A stretch of DNA of 64,000 nucleotides, from NCBI RefSeq assembly GCF_002733955.1, contig NZ_NVXQ01000009.1:143348-207347 (forward strand), read 5' to 3'. How positions within the stretch are numbered: the stretch's first letter is position 1; each line of letters starts with the position of its first letter. Under the pieces are notes generated by a model. That model saw only the letters and a list, made by a program, of their open reading frames with translations, ran no database searches and was not told the DNA's origin. Made by a program: the position numbers and the translations under genes. This DNA is from Hoeflea sp. Lineage in GTDB: Bacteria; Pseudomonadota; Alphaproteobacteria; Rhizobiales; Rhizobiaceae. Below are positions 48,715 to 61,283 of this stretch, piece by piece.

Positions 48715-50229
48715 ATGTCGACACCGCAATCACACGTGCCGCTCTGGGTGCTGGTCACCCTGCAGGGCGCGGTGTCGGGCGTCAGCCTGGTGGTCGAGAT
48801 CGTCGCCGGCCGCATGCTCGCACCCTATGTCGGCATGTCGCTCTACACCTGGACCGCGGTTATCGCCGTTGTGCTGGCCGGCTTCTCCGTCGGGCACTGG
48901 TGGGGTGGCCATGTTGCCGGGCGCCCGGCAAAAAAGGCGCTTGCCTATACCGGCTGGGTCCTGCTTGCTGCCGCCATCTCGACGGCCTCCGCCTTGTTAC
49001 TGTTGCGCGTCATCGGCGGCCCGGTTCTGGTCGCAGTCGAACATCCGGTCTGGGGCATCGTGATCCTCACTTTCGGCGTGTTCTTCCTGCCTTCGCTGTT
49101 TGCCGGGGTCCCGGCGCCGGTTCTGGCGCAGATTGCCGTCGCTCAGGAACATGTGCCGTCCGGCAGATCGCTCGGCGCCATGTTTGCGGCCGGTGCCGTC
49201 GGTGCGATTGCAGGAACATTGCTCGCGGGCTTTGTCTTCATTCCGTGGCTTGGCACCACCCTGACGCTGGCCATCGTCACCGCGATCTACCTCGTTGCCG
49301 CGGCACTGCTGTTCTGGCTGGCCCGGCCATTCAGGCAGGTGGCGGTAGCCTCGACCGTTTCGGTGCTGGCGATCGCGCTTGCCGCGCTGTCGGTCACGCG
49401 GCCGGCGGGCTGCACCACCGAAAGCCAGTATTTCTGCATCAGGGTTCTCGATGTGACCGCCGAATACGGGGTGCCGGTCAAGCGCCTGGTACTTGATCAT
49501 CTTTCGCACGGCACCAGCGCACGGGATCTGCCCCGAACGATGTTTTCCGAGTTTACCGCCATGTTCGATGCGATCGGCAGGGGGCGCCTCGGGGCCGAGC
49601 CGTTTTCGGCTTTCTTCATCGGTGGCGGGACTTTTTCCGTACCGCGTGCCTGGGCTGACCGCGACACCGGGCCGATCACCGTGGCTGAAATAGACCCGCG
49701 AGTGACCGAGACGGCGGTGCGGGATTTCTGGCTTGACCGGGAGCGCATGAAGATCCTCGACGAGGACGCCCGCGTCGCGCTGCGCAGACGGCCGGATCAG
49801 CGCTACGACGTCATTGTCGGCGATGCCTTCGGCGATATTGCCGCCCCGCCGCACCTCGTCACCCAGGAGTTTTTCCAGCTCGTCCGATCTCGGCTCACGG
49901 AGGAGGGGGTCTTCCTGATGAACGTGGTCGATTTCCCAGAGCGGCTGGCTGCGCTGGGCGCCATTGCGGCGACCTTGCAATCAGTTTTTGCCAGTGTCGA
50001 GATCTGGACCGAGGAGCGGCTGCCCACGCCCGGTGAGCAACGGGTTTTCGTTCTGGTCGCCGCTGACAAGCCGACCGCCTTTTCCGCGGTCACGGCCGCC
50101 GCACCCGATCCGGCCCGCTTCGCCGCCATGGCCGAGAGTTTCACCGACCGCCTGATTGCGAAAGCCGCGCCTGCCTTGCTGACCGATGATTATGCGCCGA
50201 TCGACCGGCTTCTCGGCGGACATTTTTGA
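48715..50229 (+). CDS. Fused membrane (MFS-like) / spermidine synthase-like protein
   Basis: 504 aa; N-terminal multi-TM half, C-terminal methyltransferase-like half (ITVAEIDPRVTETAVRDFWL, YDVIVGDAFGDIAAPPHLVTQEFFQLVRSRLTEEGVFLMNVV). Confidence 0.82.
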   Translation: MSTPQSHVPLWVLVTLQGAVSGVSLVVEIVAGRMLAPYVGMSLYTWTAVIAVVLAGFSVGHWWGGHVAGRPAKKALAYTGWVLLAAAISTASALLLLRVIGGPVLVAVEHPVWGIVILTFGVFFLPSLFAGVPAPVLAQIAVAQEHVPSGRSLGAMFAAGAVGAIAGTLLAGFVFIPWLGTTLTLAIVTAIYLVAAALLFWLARPFRQVAVASTVSVLAIALAALSVTRPAGCTTESQYFCIRVLDVTAEYGVPVKRLVLDHLSHGTSARDLPRTMFSEFTAMFDAIGRGRLGAEPFSAFFIGGGTFSVPRAWADRDTGPITVAEIDPRVTETAVRDFWLDRERMKILDEDARVALRRRPDQRYDVIVGDAFGDIAAPPHLVTQEFFQLVRSRLTEEGVFLMNVVDFPERLAALGAIAATLQSVFASVEIWTEERLPTPGEQRVFVLVAADKPTAFSAVTAAAPDPARFAAMAESFTDRLIAKAAPALLTDDYAPIDRLLGGHF

Positions 50230-50460
50230 TCGTCCGTCGGTGCCTCTGCCCGCCGAAACGGCACATCGACATCTTTTTTTGCGCGTAATGTCTGCGCTGG
50301 AGCATGTCCTGTGTTCCCGGATCGATCTTGCGCCGAGCTTCTTGCGATAATGACCTGCTAACCCCGGAAACCGGGCGCTTGCGTCCGGCATTTGCCCGTC
50401 GCCGCGGCGGTGGCCGTCATGGCAAAACGAACGGCGGATATGGTTGACCTTCCCGAAATT

Positions 50461-50493
50461 GCCGTTAGTGTCCAACAATCGGACACTAACGGC
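50461..50493. promoter_or_regulatory. Perfect 13-bp inverted repeat upstream of the Liv-type cluster, candidate operator
   Basis: GCCGTTAGTGTCC-AACAATC-GGACACTAACGGC in the intergenic region, about 120 bp before ATG 50611. Confidence 0.6.
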
Positions 50494-50610
50494 GTTGGTC
50501 GTAGGGTTGATTGTGGGGTTGCTGCAAGCGCTGCTGAGGAGGAGCGCTGCCGTGACACATGGTTTCCGTCGATTGCCTGTCCGGACATTACTTTGGGAGG
50601 AGTACACATC

Positions 50611-51927
50611 ATGATGAAATCACGGATAGGCGGCCTGTTGGCTGCAACCACGCTGGCGGTCGGCATGGCCGGGCCGGCAGCCGCTGCAGACGACACGTTC
50701 AAGATTGGCGTGATCACGTTCCTGTCGGGACAGGCGGCGGAAAGTTTTGGCGTGCCGGCCTGGAATGGCGGCAAGCTTCTGGTCGACATGCTCAACGAAG
50801 GCGGCAAACTGCCCGCGCCCTATGACAAGATGGGCTTCGGCGGCATGAAGATCGAGGCCGTCATTGTCGACGAAGCCGGCGGCGCCACCAAGCAGGTTCA
50901 GGAATTCCGCAACCTTGTTCAGCGTGAAGAGGTCGACGCGGTCGTGGGTTATGTCTCGTCGGGCGACTGCCTGGCCGTTCCGCCGGTGGCTGACGAGCTC
51001 AAGGCCTTCACCATCCTTTATGACTGCGGCACGCCGCGTGTGTTCGAGGATGGCAGCTACGAATATGTATTCCGCACCGCGGCGCACGCCACGATGGATA
51101 ATGTCAGCCTTGCGCGCTACCTCAAATCCCGCGATTTCGATGTCCCGAGCTTTGCCGGTCTCAACCAGGACTATGCCTGGGGGCAGGACAGCTGGGCCGA
51201 TTTTACCGGCGCGATGAAGCAGCTCTATCCCGATGCCGAGGTCAAGACCGCGCTGTTCCCGAAATTTGGCGCCGGCCAGTATGGCACCGAGATCTCGGCG
51301 CTGCTGCGTGAAAAGCCGGCACTGGTCCACTCGTCCAACTGGGGTGGCGATCTGCAGGGCTTCCTGATCCAGGCCACGGCGCGCGGCCTGCACAAGCGGG
51401 CGCAATTGGCGCTGGCGGCGGGCGATCACGTCATTCCGCAGCTTCAGGACAAGATGCCGGACGGCATTTTCCTTGGCGCACGTGGCGTCAACGGTCTGGC
51501 CGCTTACGCCCGTGGTGGTGAGCTCAAGCAGCTGACCGACACGATGTGGGATGCTTACGAGGCGGAATACAACACCTTCCCGGTACAGGCTCCGTTCCGC
51601 ATGTGGCAGGCCCTGTTCGGTCTGAAGACTGCGGTCGAGAAAGCGATGGCCGACAATGGCGGCACCAAGCCGACCAGCGAGGAACTTGCAGCCGCGATGA
51701 AGGGTCTCTCGTGGGATGCGCCCTCGGGCCGCATCGAGATGGCGCTTGCGGATGGGCATCAGGCGATCCAGCCCAACGCCATCGGCACCACCAAGTGGAA
51801 TGCCGATACCGGCAAGATGGAACTGGTTGACGTCGAGTATTACGATGCCCGCTGCGTCAATCCGCCCGAAGGCATGAAGTCTCAGGACTGGCTGGCGCAG
51901 GGTTTCCCCGGCGCTGAATGTGACTGA
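50611..51927 (+). CDS. ABC transporter substrate-binding protein (branched-chain amino acid/amide type)
   Basis: MMKSRIGGLLAATTLAVGMAGPAAAADDTFKIGVITFLSGQAAESFGVPAWNGGKLLVDMLNEGG. Confidence 0.9.
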   Translation: MMKSRIGGLLAATTLAVGMAGPAAAADDTFKIGVITFLSGQAAESFGVPAWNGGKLLVDMLNEGGKLPAPYDKMGFGGMKIEAVIVDEAGGATKQVQEFRNLVQREEVDAVVGYVSSGDCLAVPPVADELKAFTILYDCGTPRVFEDGSYEYVFRTAAHATMDNVSLARYLKSRDFDVPSFAGLNQDYAWGQDSWADFTGAMKQLYPDAEVKTALFPKFGAGQYGTEISALLREKPALVHSSNWGGDLQGFLIQATARGLHKRAQLALAAGDHVIPQLQDKMPDGIFLGARGVNGLAAYARGGELKQLTDTMWDAYEAEYNTFPVQAPFRMWQALFGLKTAVEKAMADNGGTKPTSEELAAAMKGLSWDAPSGRIEMALADGHQAIQPNAIGTTKWNADTGKMELVDVEYYDARCVNPPEGMKSQDWLAQGFPGAECD

Positions 51928-51946
51928 CACCTGAAATCCGAACAGA

Positions 51947-51968
51947 CCCGTCGCAGGCATGCGACGGG
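51947..51968 (+). promoter_or_regulatory. Intercistronic hairpin between substrate-binding protein and permease genes
   Basis: CCCGTCGCA-GGCA-TGCGACGGG, 9-bp perfect arms, followed by ATCGCTTTTC. Confidence 0.65.
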
Positions 51969-52005
51969 ATCGCTTTTCATGTACACGTGCTCGGACCCCT
52001 GACCC

Positions 52006-52908
52006 ATGGATCTTGCGGCAACCATCCTTGTTGATGGCCTCATCTATGCCGGCTGGCTGTTTATCGTCTCCGTCGGCCTGACGCTCGTCTTTGGCGTGCT
52101 CAATATTCTCAATATCGCGCATGGCAGTCTCTACGCCATCGGCGCCTATGCGTCCGCCTCGATGGTGGGGGCCTATTTCGCGCTCGGCGGCGAGGCGTTC
52201 CCCTATGGCAGCTACGTCGCGATGATCCTCGCGGCCCTGCTGGTCGCGCTGGTGCTTGGCCCGCTTCTGGAGCGCGGCCTGCTGAGATTCTTCTACGGCC
52301 GCGACGAAGTACTCAATGTGCTGGTGACCTACGCCGTGTTCCTCATTCTCGAGGACGTGATGAAGCTGATCTGGGGCGTCAATCCCTATTTCGTCTACGA
52401 GCCCTACACGCTGCTCGGCGATGTCGAGATCGGTCCGCTCTTTTATGTCGGCTACGATTTCGCGGTGATCGCGGCGGCCATCGTGGTTGGCCTCGCCGTC
52501 TGGCTGACGCTCAACAAGACCCGGGTCGGCAAGGTCGTGCTCGCCGTCATCCACGACTCCGAGATGAGCCAGACCATGGGCGTCAATGTCCAGCGCATCT
52601 ATCTCGGCGCCTTCATGGCCGGCACGTTTCTGGCAGCCCTTGGTGGCGCGCTGACAGCACCGATGATCTCGGTGACGCCGGGGCTGGGTGTCAATGTCAT
52701 CATCGTCGCCTTCGCCGTGGTCATCATCGGCGGGCTCGGCTCCGTTCCGGGTGCAGCCATCGGCGCGCTGATGGTCGGCATCAGCCGCGCGGCCTCGGTT
52801 CACCTGATGCCGGAAGCCGAGCTCTTCATCATCTATTTCGTCATGGCAATCGTGCTGCTGTTCCGGCCCGAAGGGCTGTTTGCGAAAACCCAGGCGAGGA
52901 AAATCTGA
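52006..52908 (+). CDS. Branched-chain-type ABC transporter permease (LivH-like)
   Basis: 300 aa; SVGLTLVFGVLNILNIAHGSLYAIGAYASAS, IGGLGSVPGAAIGALMVG. Confidence 0.92.
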   Translation: MDLAATILVDGLIYAGWLFIVSVGLTLVFGVLNILNIAHGSLYAIGAYASASMVGAYFALGGEAFPYGSYVAMILAALLVALVLGPLLERGLLRFFYGRDEVLNVLVTYAVFLILEDVMKLIWGVNPYFVYEPYTLLGDVEIGPLFYVGYDFAVIAAAIVVGLAVWLTLNKTRVGKVVLAVIHDSEMSQTMGVNVQRIYLGAFMAGTFLAALGGALTAPMISVTPGLGVNVIIVAFAVVIIGGLGSVPGAAIGALMVGISRAASVHLMPEAELFIIYFVMAIVLLFRPEGLFAKTQARKI

Positions 52909-53846
52909 TGCGTTTCAACCTTCTCCTCGCCGCCGTCATCGCCTTTGTCGTACTCGCTGCCGGATCGGTGATCCTGCCGGACTGGGCCATGTTCCTGTTT
53001 GCCATGGCGCTGGCCAAGGGGCTGGTGTGCCTCGGCATTGTCGGCATGATGCGCGGCGGCGTGGTCTCGTTCGGGCAGGGGCTCTACTACTGCCTTGGCG
53101 CCTACACAGCGACGCTTGTCGCCAACAATCTTGGCGTCTCCGACATCTTCCTGCTCACCTTGCTGAGCTCCGCGGTCTGCCTTCTGGTCGGCATGGCCTT
53201 CGGGCCGCTGCTCTCGAGCTACCGCGGCATCTTCTTCGCCATGCTGTCGCTGGCGCTGTCGATGGTGCTCTATGGCTCGCTGTCGAAGATGAGCTTCATC
53301 GGCGGCACTGACGGGCTCAACATCGCAGCCCCCACCTTCCTCGGCTGGGCGCCGGAGGGCCGGCCCTTGCAGATGGCGCTCTACATCTACGTGGTGGCGA
53401 TCGTGGTGATCGCCGGCGTGCTGATGCGCATCTATTTTGACAGCGAGCGCGGGCTGCTCACACTCGCCACCCGCGACAACGAACTCCGGGTCGAGTATCT
53501 CGGCGCCTCGGTCCGCAATGTCATGACCTACAACTACGTCTTTGGCGCGGTGCTGGGTGGCATTGGCGGCACCATCGCCGCACTTGCTCTGGGCCATGTC
53601 GATCCGGAATTTGCCTTCTGGACGACCTCGGGCGAATTCGTCTTCGTGGCCATTCTCGCAGGCTCGCTGTCGGTGCCCTCGGTCTTCGTCGCGGCGATCA
53701 TTCTCGAACTGGTGCGCTCGTTCTCAAATCTCTATTTCCCCAACACCTGGCAGCTGGCGCTCGGCATCTTCCTGCTGGCCGTCATCGTCGTTCTACCGAA
53801 AGGGCTGGGCTCGCTGGTCAGCCGCCGGAAAGGAAGCCCGGCATGA
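52908..53846 (+). CDS. Branched-chain-type ABC transporter permease (LivM-like)
   Basis: 312 aa; MRGGVVSFGQGLYYCLGAYTATLVANNLG, GVLGGIGG-type region. Confidence 0.92.
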   Translation: MRFNLLLAAVIAFVVLAAGSVILPDWAMFLFAMALAKGLVCLGIVGMMRGGVVSFGQGLYYCLGAYTATLVANNLGVSDIFLLTLLSSAVCLLVGMAFGPLLSSYRGIFFAMLSLALSMVLYGSLSKMSFIGGTDGLNIAAPTFLGWAPEGRPLQMALYIYVVAIVVIAGVLMRIYFDSERGLLTLATRDNELRVEYLGASVRNVMTYNYVFGAVLGGIGGTIAALALGHVDPEFAFWTTSGEFVFVAILAGSLSVPSVFVAAIILELVRSFSNLYFPNTWQLALGIFLLAVIVVLPKGLGSLVSRRKGSPA

Positions 53847-54595
53847 ACAAGGCAGTGCTAGAAGTCCGCGACCTTCAGAAAACCTTCGGCGCTGTCACTG
53901 CGGCGCAGGACATCTCGGTCACCGTGCCCGAAGGCGCGGTCTATTCGCTGATCGGCTCGAACGGCGCCGGCAAGACGACCTTCGTCAACATGGTGACCGG
54001 CTACATCAAGCCCGATTCCGGCCTGATCAATTTCGGCAACCGCAACATTGCCGGCATGGCCCCGCGCCAGATCACCCGACTGGGCATTCACCGCTCGTTC
54101 CAGATTGCCCAGCTCTGCGCCGAGCTGACAGTCGAGGAAAACATGCTGGTGGCCGATGCGATCCACGGCCACCCGGGCCCTTCGTTTCTGCGCAGGGCCC
54201 ACAATGCCGAGGCGCGCGAGCGTGCGCTGGCGACGCTTGAGCGCTTCCACATCGCCGAACACCGCGACAGGCTGGTGCCCGAGCTTTCCGGCGGGGTCAA
54301 GAAGTTGCTCGACATTGCCATGGCCATGGCCGGCGAGACGCAGATCATGATGCTCGACGAGCCCACTTCCGGGGTAGCGGCCGACGAGAAGTTCCCGATC
54401 ATGGATCTCGTCATGGACGCGCTGCGCTCGGCCGGTGTCACGGTGATTTTCGTGGAACACGACATGGACATCGTCACCCGCTATTCCGAACGCGTGCTGG
54501 CCTTTTACGATGGCCGCATCATTGCCGATGATGCGCCCGGCGAGGTGTTGTCCGATCCCGAAGTGCAACGATACGTGACGGGGGCGCCGGCATGA
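53843..54595 (+). CDS. ABC transporter ATP-binding protein (LivG-like)
   Basis: Walker A GSNGAGKTT, ELSGGVKKLLDIAMAMAGETQIMMLDEPTSGV. Confidence 0.93.
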   Translation: MNKAVLEVRDLQKTFGAVTAAQDISVTVPEGAVYSLIGSNGAGKTTFVNMVTGYIKPDSGLINFGNRNIAGMAPRQITRLGIHRSFQIAQLCAELTVEENMLVADAIHGHPGPSFLRRAHNAEARERALATLERFHIAEHRDRLVPELSGGVKKLLDIAMAMAGETQIMMLDEPTSGVAADEKFPIMDLVMDALRSAGVTVIFVEHDMDIVTRYSERVLAFYDGRIIADDAPGEVLSDPEVQRYVTGAPA

Positions 54596-55272
54596 GCCTG
54601 AAACTCGAAAATGTCGAAGTCAGCATCCAGGCAGCACCGATCCTGCGTGGCGTCAGCCTCGAGGTCGGCACCGGTGAGCGCATGGGACTGGTCGGCCGCA
54701 ACGGCGCGGGCAAGACCACGTTCATGCGCACCATCACCGGGCTTGCCAGCATGTCGTCCGGCAAGGTGTTCTGGCATGGCGATGACATCACCGCGATGCC
54801 GCCGCGGGACCGCGCCCGGCTCGGTTTCGGCTACATGCCCGAAGACCGCCGCCTGGTTCCGGATCTGACGGTCGAAGAAAACATGCTGCTCCCGGCCTGG
54901 GTCAATGACGATATCGATGGCGCGAAGGGCCTTGAATTCGTCTACGACCTGATGCCGGAACTGACCAAGATGGCGTCGCGCAAGGCGCTGCTCCTGTCGG
55001 GTGGGCAGCAGAAGATGGTCGCCCTTGGCCGCGCCCTGATCGCCGGCCGCAAGCTGTTGCTGCTCGACGAGCCGTTCGAGGGCGTGGCACCGGCGCTGGC
55101 CAAGCGGATTTCCGAGGTCATCACCTCGCTCAAGGGCGAGGGCCTGTCCGTGCTCATCGCGCAGTCCGAACTCAGCCACTCGCTCGATCTGCTGCAGCGT
55201 GAGAGCGTGATCGAACGCGGCGAGATTATCCGGGTGAACGTCATTGATGCGACGCTGGCGGAGGGGTTATGA
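54592..55272 (+). CDS. ABC transporter ATP-binding protein (LivF-like)
   Basis: Walker A GRNGAGKTT, LLSGGQQKMVALGRALIAGRKLLLLDEPFEGVAP. Confidence 0.93.
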   Translation: MSLKLENVEVSIQAAPILRGVSLEVGTGERMGLVGRNGAGKTTFMRTITGLASMSSGKVFWHGDDITAMPPRDRARLGFGYMPEDRRLVPDLTVEENMLLPAWVNDDIDGAKGLEFVYDLMPELTKMASRKALLLSGGQQKMVALGRALIAGRKLLLLDEPFEGVAPALAKRISEVITSLKGEGLSVLIAQSELSHSLDLLQRESVIERGEIIRVNVIDATLAEGL

Positions 55273-55343
55273 GAGCCCGTCGCCCATACCTGCCTGCAGC
55301 AGGGTCCTGCTTCCAAGCGCAGGATTTGAAGAGATAATTCCCC

Positions 55344-56108
55344 ATGCCGCTCAAACCCAAACAGCTTCGTGTCCAGCATGCCTATGAACAGGTGTCGACC
55401 GAAATCGAAGCCCAGATTCTCAACGCCTCGCTCAAGCCCGGCGACCGGCTTCCGGGCGAGGTCGAGATGGCCAGCATGTTCAACGTCAACCGCTCCACCG
55501 TGCGCGAGGGCATCCGGCGGCTTGAAAGCGAGGGCTTCGTGCGCCGGATTTCGCCGCGCAAGCTCGTGGTCTCGATCCCGCGCATGGCCGAGCTGTCCTC
55601 GCGGCAGACCCGCGCCCTGAGCATGCTCGACGTCACCTTCGAAGAGCTGTGGAATGTCGCCATCGCCACCGAGCCGCTGGCGGCTGAGCTAGCCGCCAAA
55701 CACGCCGATGCCGAGGATCTGGCGGCATTGGACGAGATCCACCGGGCGCTGGTGGCCGCGGAAGGCCAGGGCCAGGCGACGGTGGAAATCGACACCGCCT
55801 TTCATTCCCGTGTGGCGGCTGCAAGCAAGAACCGGGTTCTGCAGCTGGCGCGCGAGCCGATCGGGTTCTTGCTCTACAGCGGCGTCGACGTGCTGATCCC
55901 CAAGCTGCCGCAAGCCATGTCACGCCAGCTTGTCGCTCATCACCACATCATCAAGGCGATACGGGGCAGGGACGCTGACACCGCCAGGCTGTGGATGACC
56001 CGGCACATTGATGATTTCATGCGCGGTTACCTGCATGCAGGCCTGCCGATTGACGAGCCGATCACAAGTCCGACCGGTCGGTTGGCCGGATTGAGCCAGC
56101 CGTCGTGA
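55344..56108 (+). CDS. GntR-family transcriptional regulator with FCD domain
   Basis: GDRLPGEVEMASMFNVNRSTVREGIRRLESEGFVRRISPRKLVVS wHTH, helical C-terminal FCD-like domain. Confidence 0.9.
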   Translation: MPLKPKQLRVQHAYEQVSTEIEAQILNASLKPGDRLPGEVEMASMFNVNRSTVREGIRRLESEGFVRRISPRKLVVSIPRMAELSSRQTRALSMLDVTFEELWNVAIATEPLAAELAAKHADAEDLAALDEIHRALVAAEGQGQATVEIDTAFHSRVAAASKNRVLQLAREPIGFLLYSGVDVLIPKLPQAMSRQLVAHHHIIKAIRGRDADTARLWMTRHIDDFMRGYLHAGLPIDEPITSPTGRLAGLSQPS

Positions 56109-56175
56109 CGGGTCAAAACAGAAACAGGGTTTGCCGCCGGCCAGTCGGCAAACCGGATTGGGACGAGGACCGCAG

Positions 56176-57768
56176 ATGACGACGCAGCTGGCATTGCGCA
56201 GGGAACTTCACTACGGCAATCGCGTGGTCGCGTGCCATGCCGAACGCCCGCCCAATGTCCATGCAATGCTGGCCGAGGCCGTCGCCCGCTATCCGCACAG
56301 GGAAGCCCTGATCTGCGAGGAGGTCCGTTGGACCTATACCCGCCTGGATGAGGAGGTGGGGCGCGTCGCCGCAGGACTTGCGGCCCTCGGCGTGGGGCAG
56401 GGCGACAGGGTGGCCCTGCTTCTGGGCAATGGTGTGCCTTTCGTGGTGCTGACCTATGCCGCGGCCCGGCTCGGTGCCGTGACGGTCCCGCTGAGCATTC
56501 GCGACCAGATGCCGGGCATCCGCCATGCGCTGGTCAATTCCGAGGCCATCGCGCTTGTCGTCGAGGCGGAGTTTGCCGGCCTTGTTCCGCCGCCGGACGA
56601 AACGCCGAGCCTTGCTGCCCGAATCGCCGTGGGCATGGCACCCGGCTACCGCGACTATGACATGCTGCGTGAGGCCGGGACGCTTGTGGAGGCCGCCGAT
56701 GTGGGCGAGGAGGAGGTTGCGACCATCCTCTACACATCAGGCACCACCGGGGTCCCCAAGGGCGCGATGCTGACCGGTCTCGGGATCGTTCATTCTTCCA
56801 TGAATTTCGTGCAGACGATGGACCTTGGCCCGGGCGACAAGACCATCGTGGTCGTGCCCATGAGCCATGTCACCGGGCTGGTGGCTGGCATCCACACGCT
56901 GATCTGCGCCGGGGGCAGCATCGTCACCATGCGAGAGTTCAAGGCTGAGCGTTTTCTCGACTGTGCCGCGCGCGAGGCCATGACCTGTTCGCTGATGGTT
57001 CCGGCCATGTACAATCTGTGCCTGCATCAGGCCGATCTGAGCGACTACGATCTCTCCTCTTGGCGGGTGGGTGGCTATGGCGGCGCGCCAATGCCGGCTG
57101 CGACCATTGAACGGCTGGCGGACGCGCTGCCGGGCCTGGGGTTGATGAACGCCTATGGCGCAACGGAAGTGACGTCTCCGGCCACCGTCATGCCGGCCGA
57201 CCAGACAGCGGCTCGGCGCTTGTCTGTTGGGCTGCCGGTTCCGGGGGCGGAGATTTGCGTCGTGGACGAGGCAGGCCGCGAAGTGCCGGCCGGCGAAAAT
57301 GGTGAATTGTGGATCCGGGGCGCGATGGTGGTTCCCGGCTACTGGCGCAACCCGGAAGCCGATGCGCGAGAATTCTCGGCAGGCTTCTGGAAATCCGGCG
57401 ATATCGGTGCAATCGACGCCGACGGCTTTGTCCATGTCCACGACCGCAAGAAGGATATGATCAACCGCGGCGGCTACAAGGTCTTCACCGCCCAGGTCGA
57501 AAGCGTGTTGACCGCCTGTCACGGCGTGATCGAGGCCGCAGTGATCGCCAAGCCCTGTCCGATCCTGGGCGAGCGCGTGCATGCCGTGCTCTCCATCGAA
57601 CTCGGCAGCGTCACCGAGCTTGAGGTGTCGCAACGCTGCGCGGCCCGGCTCGCCGATTACCAGTGCCCCGAAACCTATACATTTTACGACGAGCCATTGC
57701 CGCGCAATGCCAATGGCAAGGTTCTCAAGCGCCAGATCCGGCAGCAGCTCGGGTTTCTGGATCCATGA
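56176..57768 (+). CDS. Class I adenylate-forming enzyme / acyl-CoA ligase
   Basis: ILYTSGTTGVPKGAMLTG, NAYGATEVTSPATVMP, DGFVHVHDRKKDMINRGGYKVFTAQVE. Confidence 0.92.
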   Translation: MTTQLALRRELHYGNRVVACHAERPPNVHAMLAEAVARYPHREALICEEVRWTYTRLDEEVGRVAAGLAALGVGQGDRVALLLGNGVPFVVLTYAAARLGAVTVPLSIRDQMPGIRHALVNSEAIALVVEAEFAGLVPPPDETPSLAARIAVGMAPGYRDYDMLREAGTLVEAADVGEEEVATILYTSGTTGVPKGAMLTGLGIVHSSMNFVQTMDLGPGDKTIVVVPMSHVTGLVAGIHTLICAGGSIVTMREFKAERFLDCAAREAMTCSLMVPAMYNLCLHQADLSDYDLSSWRVGGYGGAPMPAATIERLADALPGLGLMNAYGATEVTSPATVMPADQTAARRLSVGLPVPGAEICVVDEAGREVPAGENGELWIRGAMVVPGYWRNPEADAREFSAGFWKSGDIGAIDADGFVHVHDRKKDMINRGGYKVFTAQVESVLTACHGVIEAAVIAKPCPILGERVHAVLSIELGSVTELEVSQRCAARLADYQCPETYTFYDEPLPRNANGKVLKRQIRQQLGFLDP

Positions 57769-57864
57769 TGTTCACGCAGCGCCGCCAGGGGCGGCAGCTG
57801 ATCACTTTCAGATACGCCACCGGACAGAAGACCGGCGGATAGCCACAAGCAAGGACGAACCACC

Positions 57865-59055
57865 ATGAACAAGCTGCTGCAAAGAACCGGTGTGTCAGCC
57901 CGGGCACTGGAGATCGCAGATCGGGTTGAACAGTTCGTCCGCGAGAAAGTCGTCCCCTTTGAACGCGATCCGCGTCTGGGCTTCCATGGTCCGACCGAGG
58001 ACCTCGCCGATGAGCTCAAAGACCTGGCCCGCGCAGCCGGCGTGATGACCCCGCATATCCTCGATGATGGCGATCATCTGACCCAGCGCGAAACCGCCTC
58101 CGTGCTGATCCGCTCCGGTCTGTCGATCCTCGGGCCGCTGGCCTGCCACACCTGTGCTCCGGACGAAGGCAACATCTATCTTCTGGGCAAGGTCGCCTCG
58201 CCGGAGCTCAAGCAGCGTTTCCTGACCCGGATGGTCGATGGCTCGATGCGCACGGCGTTTTTCATGACCGAGCCGGCAGAGGATGGCGGCGCAGGCTCCG
58301 ACCCCTCTATGATGCAGACCACCTGCAGGATGGATGGCAACCACTGGGTGATCAACGGCCGCAAAGCCTTCATCACCGGCGCCGAGGGCGCCGGCATGGG
58401 CATCATCATGGCCAGATCCGACGATGGCGCTTGCATGTTCCTGGTCGATCTGCCCAACCCGGCGATCCGCATCGAACGGGTGCTCGACACCATCGACAAT
58501 TCGATGCCCGGCGGCCATGCCGTCATCACCATCGACAATCTGCGCGTCCCCGCCGACCAGATGCTGGGCGAATCGGGCGAGGGCTTCAAATATGCCCAGG
58601 TCCGGCTGGCGCCTGCGCGGCTCAGCCATTGCATGCGCTGGCTCGGGGCCTGCGTGCGCGCCAACGAGATTGCCACCGACTATGCCAACCGCCGCTTGGC
58701 CTTTGGCAAACAGCTGGTCGATCACGAAGGCGTCGGCTTCATGCTGGCCGAGAACCTGATGGACCTCAAGCAGGCGGAGCTGATGATCTACTGGTGCGCC
58801 GATGTGCTCGACAGCGGCGCTCAGGGGGGCGCCGAAAGTTCGATGGCCAAGGTGGCGGTCTCCGAGGCGCTGATGCGTGTCGCTGACCGCTGTGTGCAAT
58901 GCATGGGCGGGCAGGGGGTGACGGCCGATTCGATGGTCGAGCAGGTGTTCCGCGAAATCCGCGCCTTCCGCATCTATGACGGGCCGACCGAGGTTCACAA
59001 GTGGAGCCTGGCCAAGAAGATCAAGCGCGACTGGAAGGCGGAAAACGCCAAATGA
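57865..59055 (+). CDS. Acyl-CoA dehydrogenase
   Basis: 396 aa; FFMTEPAEDGGAGSDPSMMQTTCRM, INGRKAFITGAEGAGMGIIMARSD, CMGGQGVTADSMVEQVFREIRAFRIYDGPTEVHKW. Confidence 0.94.
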   Translation: MNKLLQRTGVSARALEIADRVEQFVREKVVPFERDPRLGFHGPTEDLADELKDLARAAGVMTPHILDDGDHLTQRETASVLIRSGLSILGPLACHTCAPDEGNIYLLGKVASPELKQRFLTRMVDGSMRTAFFMTEPAEDGGAGSDPSMMQTTCRMDGNHWVINGRKAFITGAEGAGMGIIMARSDDGACMFLVDLPNPAIRIERVLDTIDNSMPGGHAVITIDNLRVPADQMLGESGEGFKYAQVRLAPARLSHCMRWLGACVRANEIATDYANRRLAFGKQLVDHEGVGFMLAENLMDLKQAELMIYWCADVLDSGAQGGAESSMAKVAVSEALMRVADRCVQCMGGQGVTADSMVEQVFREIRAFRIYDGPTEVHKWSLAKKIKRDWKAENAK

Positions 59056-59864
59056 CCTCCATCGCTGACACCACGGCCTCGCCGCCGGTCCTGCTCGATG
59101 TCACTGCTGGCATTGCCCGCATTACGCTCAACCGACCGGACCGGGGCAATGCCCTCAATCAGCCGATGGCGGATGCGCTGCTGAATGCCGCCCTGCGCGT
59201 TGCCAACGACACCGAAATCCGCTGCGTGATCCTGACCGGGGCGGGCCGGATGTTCTGTGTCGGCGGCGATATCGGCGATTTTGCCGGCAGCAGCGAAGGC
59301 ACCGGCGCGTTCCTTGGCCGCTTGGCCGGGACGCTGCACCAGGCGATGCAACTGCTGGCCAAGATGCCCAAACCGATGATCTGTCTGGTCAATGGCCCTG
59401 CGGCCGGGGCAGGGCTTAGCATGGCGATCAGCGGCGACATCGTGCTGGCCCATCCCTCCGCCCATTTCACCGCCGCCTATCTCGGCATCGGCCTGACGCC
59501 GGACGGCGGCATGACCTGGCTCTTGCCGCGCCTGGTCGGCATGCGGCTGGCGCAAGAGATCATTCTGAGCAACCGGCGCGTCGGCGCTGAAGAGGCGGCC
59601 GCGATTGGCCTGGTGACCCGCGTGGTGGAAGATGACGCGCTGGACACACAAGGCTCCGAACTCGCCACCCGACTGGCATCCGGCGCGGTGGCGGCCATGG
59701 CCGCATCACGCAGGCTGCTGCAGGACAGCTTTGCCTCCGGCCTTGCCAGCCAGATGGACCGGGAGCTGGGGTCCATTGCCGCCGCCGGAGAAGGCGCCGA
59801 AGGCCGCGAAGGCGTCAGCGCCTTTCTGGATCGCCGGCCGCCGGACTTCCCCAATGCATCCTGA
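59052..59864 (+). CDS. Enoyl-CoA hydratase/isomerase family protein
   Basis: ITLNRPDRGNALNQPMADALLNAA, FCVGGDIGDFAG, GPAAGAGLSMAISGDIVLAHPSAHFTAAYLGIGLTPDGGMTWLLPRLVG; ATGA overlap with upstream gene. Confidence 0.93.
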   Translation: MTSIADTTASPPVLLDVTAGIARITLNRPDRGNALNQPMADALLNAALRVANDTEIRCVILTGAGRMFCVGGDIGDFAGSSEGTGAFLGRLAGTLHQAMQLLAKMPKPMICLVNGPAAGAGLSMAISGDIVLAHPSAHFTAAYLGIGLTPDGGMTWLLPRLVGMRLAQEIILSNRRVGAEEAAAIGLVTRVVEDDALDTQGSELATRLASGAVAAMAASRRLLQDSFASGLASQMDRELGSIAAAGEGAEGREGVSAFLDRRPPDFPNAS

Positions 59865-59972
59865 GGCGGGGCTACGGAGACGGACAGCGCCGCATCACCC
59901 GAAGCCGCCAGCTTTCGATCCGCCGCGCCATCAGCGCCGCGCCGCAGTCACCAAATCTCGGGAACAGATCAG

Positions 59973-61088
59973 ATGAGCCATCTTTTTCAACCATTGCAGC
60001 TCGGCGCGCTCGAGCTCGAAAACCGCATCATCATCGCGCCGATGTGCCAGTACTCGGCCGTCGACGGCAATGCCCAGGACTGGCACCTGATCCATCTCGC
60101 AAGCCTGGCGCTCTCGGGCGCCGGACTGCTGATCATCGAGGCCACCGCTGTCTCGCCGGAGGGCCGCATTTCGCCGGCCGATCTCGGGATGTACTCGGAT
60201 GACAACGAGGCGGCGCTGGGCCGGGTGATGCAGGCGCTGGCGAAGCACTCGGACATGCCGCTGGCAATCCAGCTTTCGCACGCCGGGCGCAAAGGCTCGA
60301 GCCAGCCGCCCTGGGAAGGTGGCGCCCAGATCCGGGCGGACCAGACCAATGGCTGGAAGGCCGAGGCGCCGTCCGCCGTGCCGCACGCGGAGGGGGAAGA
60401 TACGCCGGCAGCACTGGATGAGGCGGGCCTCGCCCGTGTGCGCGCGGATTTCGTACGCGCAGCGCAAAGGGCCCTGCGGCTTGGTATCCGCGGCATCGAG
60501 GTGCACATGGCCCATGGCTACCTGCTGCACCAGTTCCTCTCGCCGCTGTCGAACCGGCGCAATGATGCCTATGGCGGCACGCTCGAGAACCGGATGCGCT
60601 TCCCGCTTGAGGTCTTTGACGCGATCAGGGCGGAAATGCCCGCCGAAATGCCGGTCTGGGTCAGGGTATCGGCCACCGACTGGGTCGAGGGCGGCTGGGA
60701 CCTCGACAGCACGGTTGCGCTCTCCAAGGCCCTGAAACAGCGCGGCTGTGCCGCCATTCACGTCAGCACCGGCGGTGTGTCGACAAAACAGACGATTCCG
60801 GCCGGCCCCGGCTTTCAGGTCCCGTTTGCAGCAAGGATCAAGGCCGAAACCGGCCTGCCCACCTTTGCCGTCGGCCTGATCACGGAACCCGAACAGGCCG
60901 AGACAATCCTGCAAAAAGGCGAAGCCGACGCGATCGCGCTGGCCCGGGCAATGCTTTACGATCCGCACTGGCCCTGGCACGCAGCCGCAGCCCTCGGCGC
61001 CAAGGTCACGGCCCCGAAGCAGTACTGGCGCTCAAACCCGCGCGAATTCCCGGATCTCTTCAAGAACACCAGGACAGCACAGCGCTGA
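59973..61088 (+). CDS. NADH:flavin oxidoreductase, old yellow enzyme family (YqjM/NamA-like)
   Basis: 371 aa; LFQPLQLGALELENRIIIAPMCQYSAVDGNAQDWHLIHLASLALSGAGLLIIEATAVSPEGRIS, QLSHAGRK, HMAHGYLLHQFLSPLSNRR. Confidence 0.95.
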   Translation: MSHLFQPLQLGALELENRIIIAPMCQYSAVDGNAQDWHLIHLASLALSGAGLLIIEATAVSPEGRISPADLGMYSDDNEAALGRVMQALAKHSDMPLAIQLSHAGRKGSSQPPWEGGAQIRADQTNGWKAEAPSAVPHAEGEDTPAALDEAGLARVRADFVRAAQRALRLGIRGIEVHMAHGYLLHQFLSPLSNRRNDAYGGTLENRMRFPLEVFDAIRAEMPAEMPVWVRVSATDWVEGGWDLDSTVALSKALKQRGCAAIHVSTGGVSTKQTIPAGPGFQVPFAARIKAETGLPTFAVGLITEPEQAETILQKGEADAIALARAMLYDPHWPWHAAAALGAKVTAPKQYWRSNPREFPDLFKNTRTAQR

Positions 61089-61207
61089 CGGCTGTCAGCC
61101 GCGGTCATCGATGCAACTGGACAGAGCGCTTTGGAGGTACCCCGTCCGTGGCCACAGATATGTGGACCATTCCAACGGCGAGCATTCTGCATGCTTTTGG
61201 AGAAGAG

Positions 61208-61283
<76 letters not shown>

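Follow-up and report, generated by a model that had tools for sequence, protein, structure and literature searches.

A probable lva-like operon for 4-hydroxy acid import and breakdown, with its kinase gene missing, in Hoeflea sp.

4-Hydroxy acids stem from lipid peroxidation, gamma-lactones and poly-4-hydroxybutyrate, and the ordinary pathway of fat breakdown is unable to deal with the hydroxyl group that they carry. Their uptake and degradation by bacteria are known mainly from the levulinate (lva) operon of Pseudomonas. In the chemistry of LvaC and the mammalian enzymes ACAD10 and ACAD11, a kinase first phosphorylates the 4-hydroxyacyl-coenzyme A (CoA), after which these members of the acyl-CoA dehydrogenase (ACAD) family convert the 4-phosphoacyl-CoA to a 2-enoyl-CoA without net redox change (PMC12440821, PMC11342911). 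An HCMR motif, an arginine (R626) and a catalytic Asp at the position where other ACADs have Glu are reported to be particular to ACAD10, ACAD11 and LvaC and required for activity (PMC12440821, PMC11342911). Here we analyzed a stretch of 64,000 nucleotides from Hoeflea sp. (contig NZ_NVXQ01000009.1 of assembly GCF_002733955.1; hereafter the window), in which ten genes at 50611-61088 probably form an lva-like operon that would import a 4-hydroxy acid, activate it with CoA, phosphorylate it and remove the phosphate to yield an enoyl-CoA. The case for this reading is sequence-based and draws on gene content, ACAD residues, the presence or absence of a kinase gene, operator conservation and importer phylogeny.

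The genome containing the window (G000; 4.86 Mb in 40 contigs, the window end being a contig end) was compared with the congeneric genomes G001, G010, G002 and G013. An earlier reading of the stretch made from its letters alone (the sequence-only reading) had described ten same-strand genes with several overlapping junctions. All ten open reading frames (ORFs) are present on the + strand and intact, and the following features were assigned:

50461..50493, no strand: inverted repeat, probable GntR/FCD operator (conservation across full-operon loci)
50611..51927, +: Liv-type periplasmic binding protein, Peripla_BP_6 (Pfam PF13458, 4e-44)
52006..52908, +: Liv-type permease 1, BPD_transp_2 (domain matches)
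52908..53846, +: Liv-type permease 2, BPD_transp_2 (domain matches)
53843..54595, +: ATP-binding cassette (ABC) ATPase, LivG/UrtD-like (domain matches)
54592..55272, +: ABC ATPase, LivF/UrtE-like (domain matches)
55344..56108, +: GntR/FCD regulator (PF00392 and PF07729)
56176..57768, +: acyl-CoA ligase, AMP-binding (PF00501, 3e-85)
57865..59055, +: predicted LvaC/ACAD10/11-type enzyme (alignment to ACAD11 8v3u/8v3v; motif survey)
59048..59109, no strand: site of the missing LvaA-type kinase gene (nucleotide alignment with the G010, Sulfitobacter and metagenomic loci; N-termini)
59052..59864, +: crotonase-fold enzyme, probably PaaG-type (TIGR02280 below cut-off; alignment with 4fzw_C and 3hrx)
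59973..61088, +: old-yellow-enzyme (OYE) ene-reductase (phmmer against 5ocs)
61208..61283, -: tRNA-Thr(TGT), 3' edge of the variable chromosomal site (ARAGORN)

The junctions touch or overlap at 52908, 53843/53846 and 54592/54595 within the transporter block and at 59052/59055 between the ACAD and crotonase genes. The Liv/HAAT importer set is complete, with a binding protein, two BPD_transp_2 permeases and two ATPases. This gene order recurs in two congeners, and the operon is also found, entire or largely so, in its closest named relatives, Sedimentitalea, Sulfitobacter and Roseobacter, and in one alphaproteobacterial metagenome-assembled genome (MAG). Across the ten genes, the pairwise ratio of nonsynonymous to synonymous substitutions (dN/dS) between G000 and two congeners was ∼0.015-0.15, with dS values of ∼0.4-1.4. 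Because the order recurs in relatives and dN/dS is low, the ten-gene arrangement is not due to chance. The genes thus do co-occur in other genomes, and the proposal of import, CoA activation and entry into beta-oxidation made in the sequence-only reading holds up. In the open-access literature we found no description of this gene set.

The ACAD carries the argument for the substrate. Its best characterized PDB relatives are ACAD11 structures, and in the alignment it retains R626, R631, H634-C-M-R637 and D753. The segment RLAPARLSHCMR, with the HCMR motif and the upstream arginines, aligns with RLGPGRIHHCMR of ACAD11, while IYDGPTEVH of the window ACAD aligns with LADGPDEVH, placing an Asp where the catalytic Glu would be; 8v3u and 8v3v differ by a D-to-N exchange exactly in this column, which confirms its identity. 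Judged by the Asp for Glu, the HCMR motif and both extra arginines (PMC12440821), this enzyme is of the LvaC/ACAD10/11 type, predicted to act on 4-phosphoacyl-CoA, and is not the ordinary dehydrogenase for which it had been taken. Because these residues match those of 4-phosphoacyl-CoA enzymes, the substrate of the pathway would be a 4-hydroxy acid. The sequence-only reading proposed a beta-oxidation-like breakdown of a carboxylic acid that is unsaturated or cyclic; on this view the operon would be an ordinary one and the ACAD a normal FAD/electron-transferring flavoprotein (ETF) dehydrogenase. In its favor, the ligase, ACAD and crotonase match generic families, Liv importers often carry aromatic acids and the binding protein has distant PDB relatives only. 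The ACAD residues just described speak against it, as does the small-molecule kinase encoded in orthologous operons, an enzyme for which plain beta-oxidation has no use, and we regard this view as unlikely.

In G010, this kinase gene, which has an aminoglycoside phosphotransferase (APH) fold, sits between the ACAD and crotonase genes, and a kinase gene is located immediately 3' of the ACAD gene also in Sedimentitalea xiamensis, Roseobacter NP10, Sulfitobacter sediminilitoris and the MAG. An APH-fold kinase with the HGDxxxxN motif directly follows the ACAD in 5/8 full-operon loci, and the gene measures ∼1.05 kb in the orthologous loci. By nucleotide alignment, an LvaA-type kinase gene is absent from the operon in the window and in G001. 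The alignment of G010 with the window is continuous through the ACAD gene to 59048 and restarts at 59109 inside the crotonase gene, and in the window as in G001 the stop codon of the ACAD gene overlaps the ATG of the crotonase gene. Judging from these alignments, the kinase gene is cleanly deleted from the operon in both genomes. The crotonase starts with MTSIAD in the window and MTSPAD in G001, which is nearer to the start of the Sulfitobacter kinase (MTSTAV) than to that of the G010 crotonase (MTQLPV); this looks like a deletion scar, and is suggestive only. The missing kinase, which the sequence-only reading had no means of seeing, is the most informative feature of the window operon. Its loss is a natural experiment on whether phosphorylation has to be encoded in cis, and on whether it is needed at all.

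Deletion of the kinase in G000 and G001 could also mean that the pathway is broken and that the remaining genes are residual, and G002, which keeps an orphan ACAD alone near the tRNA-Thr site, would then represent erosion within the genus. Such a decay is very unlikely in view of the ten intact genes, the low dN/dS despite the dS values given above, an exactly conserved operator and the translational coupling that survived the deletion. The ten genes rather appear to have remained under purifying selection after the loss of the kinase, and the operon does not look like one in decay.

The importer was examined in a class-wide search for binding proteins in 385 genomes of the class, which were not selected for the ligase. 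At identities of at least 60%, 5 of the 7 binding proteins adjoin the ligase gene; among the weaker ones none of 18 does so, and 2/18 adjoin genes for an iron-containing alcohol dehydrogenase (Fe-ADH) and a succinic semialdehyde dehydrogenase (SSADH). A related importer lies beside an AttM lactonase, Fe-ADH and SSADH on plasmids of Rhizobium, and beside Fe-ADH and SSADH on Sinorhizobium and Methylorubrum plasmids and in two further genomes. Genes of this kind in Rhizobium and Sinorhizobium have been tied to gamma-hydroxybutyrate through genetics and metabolomics (preprint, PMC12636752). In the tree, ligase-linked importers form one clade of 27 (100/100; 25/27 beside the ligase), within a sample partly drawn through the ligase, while the 4-hydroxybutyrate-linked importers fall outside this clade as near neighbors, with deep branches partly unresolved. 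The clade to which the importer of this locus belongs is a candidate for the transport of 4-hydroxy acids. A urea transporter was rejected, as the scores of the UrtA-E models lie far under the respective cut-offs. On a plasmid of Methylorubrum extorquens DM4 (L036 8057-19484), the related Liv importer, Fe-ADH and SSADH are found close to genes for a polyhydroxyalkanoate depolymerase and a phasin, a neighborhood that would fit poly-4-hydroxybutyrate use. Ligase neighborhoods were tallied for 78 named loci with a length of 5 kb or more, after removal of two over-long reference ORFs. Kinase plus HCMR-ACAD occurred at 14/78, this importer family at 14/78 and all of them at 6/78. Since most of the remaining loci are from Bradyrhizobium and have a different Liv permease, the ligase family is, on this tally, broader than the 4-hydroxy-acid pathway.

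Upstream of the binding-protein gene lies the inverted repeat GCCGTTAGTGTCCAACAATCGGACACTAACGGC, with 13-bp arms and the core AGTGTCCAACAATNGGACA. This core is recognizable at the same place in 8/8 full-operon loci, exactly or with few changes in 7/8 and in degenerate form in Thalassovita; G000, G001 and G010 each have one zero-mismatch match, always upstream of the operon. The repeat contains TGTNNNACA, which we take to be the form expected for GntR/FCD operators, and it is likely to be such an operator. The locus ties ACAD10/11 chemistry to a dedicated importer, a regulator and a candidate operator.

If the operon is lva-like, its kinase activity would have to come from another locus, and would probably be provided in trans by one of two other LvaA-like kinases of G000, which have the catalytic motif and are located on C6 and C32. 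The C32 locus (C32:2500-22499; L051) is a second lva-like cluster with an LvaA-like kinase, an HCMR-type ACAD, a short-chain dehydrogenase/reductase (SDR), a tripartite ATP-independent periplasmic (TRAP) binding protein and a crotonase. The C6 locus (C6:237000-256999; L052) is a third locus with an LvaA-like kinase and an HCMR-ACAD, and is kept in G001 (L053) and G010 (L054); the C6-type loci also hold SDR, aldehyde dehydrogenase and ACAD genes. At L205-L207, kinase-like genes beside HCMR-ACADs lack the HGDxxxxN motif and are possibly diverged or inactive kinases.

Several observations weigh against the lva-like reading. The kinase is essential in the known pathway and absent from the window operon, and its relocation within the genome was rejected, since the best other kinases show 48% (G000) and 44% (G001) identity versus 72-78% among true orthologues. 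A kinase co-regulated through a shared operator was likewise rejected: in genome searches of G000, G001 and G010 the operator of the operon was not found at other kinase loci, and operator-like sites beyond the operon's own have 3 mismatches, which is about the control level. HCMR-ACADs without an adjoining kinase recur in Thalassovita (L060), on a Comamonadaceae plasmid (L031), at L065 and L096, and as the G002 orphan. The importers beside 4-hydroxybutyrate genes are only ∼50% identical, and many ligase relatives, mostly from Bradyrhizobium, have neither the kinase nor this importer nearby. The spread of kinase-less HCMR-ACADs over several separate lineages, the purifying selection on the ACAD in the kinase-less pair and the failure to find a co-regulated kinase would also suit an LvaC-type enzyme with changed chemistry. 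Such an enzyme would act on 4-hydroxyacyl-CoA or 4-hydroxy-2-enoyl-CoA without phosphorylation, perhaps with the conjugated double bond being dealt with by the OYE, and would represent a second, ATP-sparing entry of 4-hydroxy acids into beta-oxidation. However, the ACAD retains all phosphate-handling residues, and both congeners without the operon kinase have LvaA-like kinases with the catalytic motif that could serve in trans, which makes a changed chemistry highly improbable. The lva-like operon remains the reading that we favor.

The crotonase had been read as an enoyl-CoA hydratase. Its best NCBIfam match is TIGR02280 (PaaG), below cut-off; it aligns best with PaaG-type isomerases, and the Asp of the PDGG segment is conserved in the alignment with 4fzw_C and 3hrx. 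By eye, the pair of catalytic glutamates of hydratases looked absent. A PaaG-type enoyl-CoA isomerase is more likely than a hydratase. The OYE is similar to 5ocs over its full length (phmmer 1.5e-175, 371/371 residues) and belongs to the YqjM/NamA/5ocs thermophilic-like group. It had been singled out as the least routine part of the locus; it proved to be recurrent, being present at >70% identity in 6/8 full-operon loci, and its role would be an accessory one. OYEs at 58-62% identity elsewhere in the relatives are not near such genes. In Thalassovita the OYE gene lies upstream of the binding-protein gene and not at the operon end, and because its position differs there, the OYE appears functionally tied to the operon and not merely inherited with its order. 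OYEs are reported to act on an unsaturated gamma-butyrolactone (PMC3533789). In the window operon, the OYE may widen the range of the pathway to include butenolides or unsaturated 4-hydroxy acids. A salicylyl-CoA/2-aminobenzoyl-CoA hydroxylase-reductase was rejected, as the match of the OYE to PRK08255 is confined to the C-terminal half of that model and there is no monooxygenase half.

From these data we infer the substrate, the kinase acting in trans and the roles of the isomerase and the OYE. The GntR/FCD regulator would control the genes, probably via the inverted repeat, and the Liv-type ABC importer would take up 4-hydroxybutyrate or one of its homologues, perhaps an unsaturated one. The ligase would convert this acid to a 4-hydroxyacyl-CoA, the 4-hydroxyl group of which would be phosphorylated in trans by a kinase of the LvaA kind. 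The LvaC/ACAD11-type enzyme would then remove the phosphate by an internal FAD redox cycle, delivering a 2-enoyl-CoA for beta-oxidation, while the PaaG-like crotonase would adjust the position of the double bond and the OYE would saturate the activated C=C bond of unsaturated 4-hydroxy acids or their butenolides. The sequence-only reading had held that the substrate is not deducible; its class, at least, can be assigned with fair confidence as a 4-hydroxy acid because of the residues of the ACAD, the kinase that orthologous operons encode and the gamma-butyrolactone/4-hydroxybutyrate genes next to related importers. An LvaD-like SDR is absent among the ten operon genes, which argues for a 4-hydroxy rather than a 4-oxo acid and led us to reject levulinate itself. 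Cyclohexanecarboxylate was also rejected, the ligase and ACAD models being far below cut-off.

The operon is flanked by a P-type ATPase/spermidine-synthase-like pair on one side and by tRNA-Thr, FkbM and SpoU genes on the other. It occupies the same site in G010 and lies elsewhere in G001, and in G013 these flanks enclose ∼10.5 kb of other genes. In G002, the orphan HCMR-ACAD (L203 9414-10607 / L222 2914-4107) is located in the interval bounded by the tRNA-Thr and the P-type ATPase gene; it is intact, 89% identical to the window ACAD, and has no ligase, kinase or importer nearby. As judged from this comparison, the site varies within the genus, where the operon has been lost or relocated. It spans 48715-61283 of the window and is also covered by L220, L221-L222 and L023. 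A recent plasmid origin was rejected, as none of the plasmid records extends over 80% of the locus.

Compared with known systems, the window operon would work like the lva pathway and ACAD10/11, yet its set of lva genes is incomplete. Shared with lva are a CoA ligase (at the level of the AMP-binding family), an LvaC-type ACAD, an LvaA-type kinase in the orthologous loci and the bringing of a C4-oxygenated acid into beta-oxidation. The window operon lacks the LvaD SDR, the ActP-type transporter LvaG and the sigma54 regulator LvaR, and instead has a Liv ABC importer, a GntR/FCD regulator, a PaaG-like crotonase and an OYE, while the kinase is missing. The lva clusters themselves vary in LvaB and the ligase, and in P. 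citronellolis LvaB is missing from its cluster (PMC6692424). With the mammalian ACAD10/ACAD11 pathway the operon shares the ACAD domain residues R626, R631, HCMR and D753; it differs in that the bacterial kinase and ACAD are separate genes, the former being absent here, and in its dedicated uptake and ligase genes. The att/blc genes for gamma-butyrolactone/4-hydroxybutyrate on the Rhizobium, Sinorhizobium and Methylorubrum plasmids have a related Liv importer (binding protein ∼50% identical), but proceed by oxidation via succinic semialdehyde and not by a CoA/phosphate route. On plasmid p6 of Pseudosulfitobacter pseudonitzschiae (L021 5545-18293), an ACAD 80% identical to that of the window is followed by an overlapping kinase gene, and the GntR/FCD regulators are 50% identical; this operon has a TRAP instead of a Liv importer, a different ligase, an SDR, a thiolase and no OYE, and is apparently another 4-hydroxy-acid operon. 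In P. putida, the degradation route of 4-hydroxybutyryl-CoA was left as a hypothesis (PMC7090098), and the window operon offers a testable route for it.

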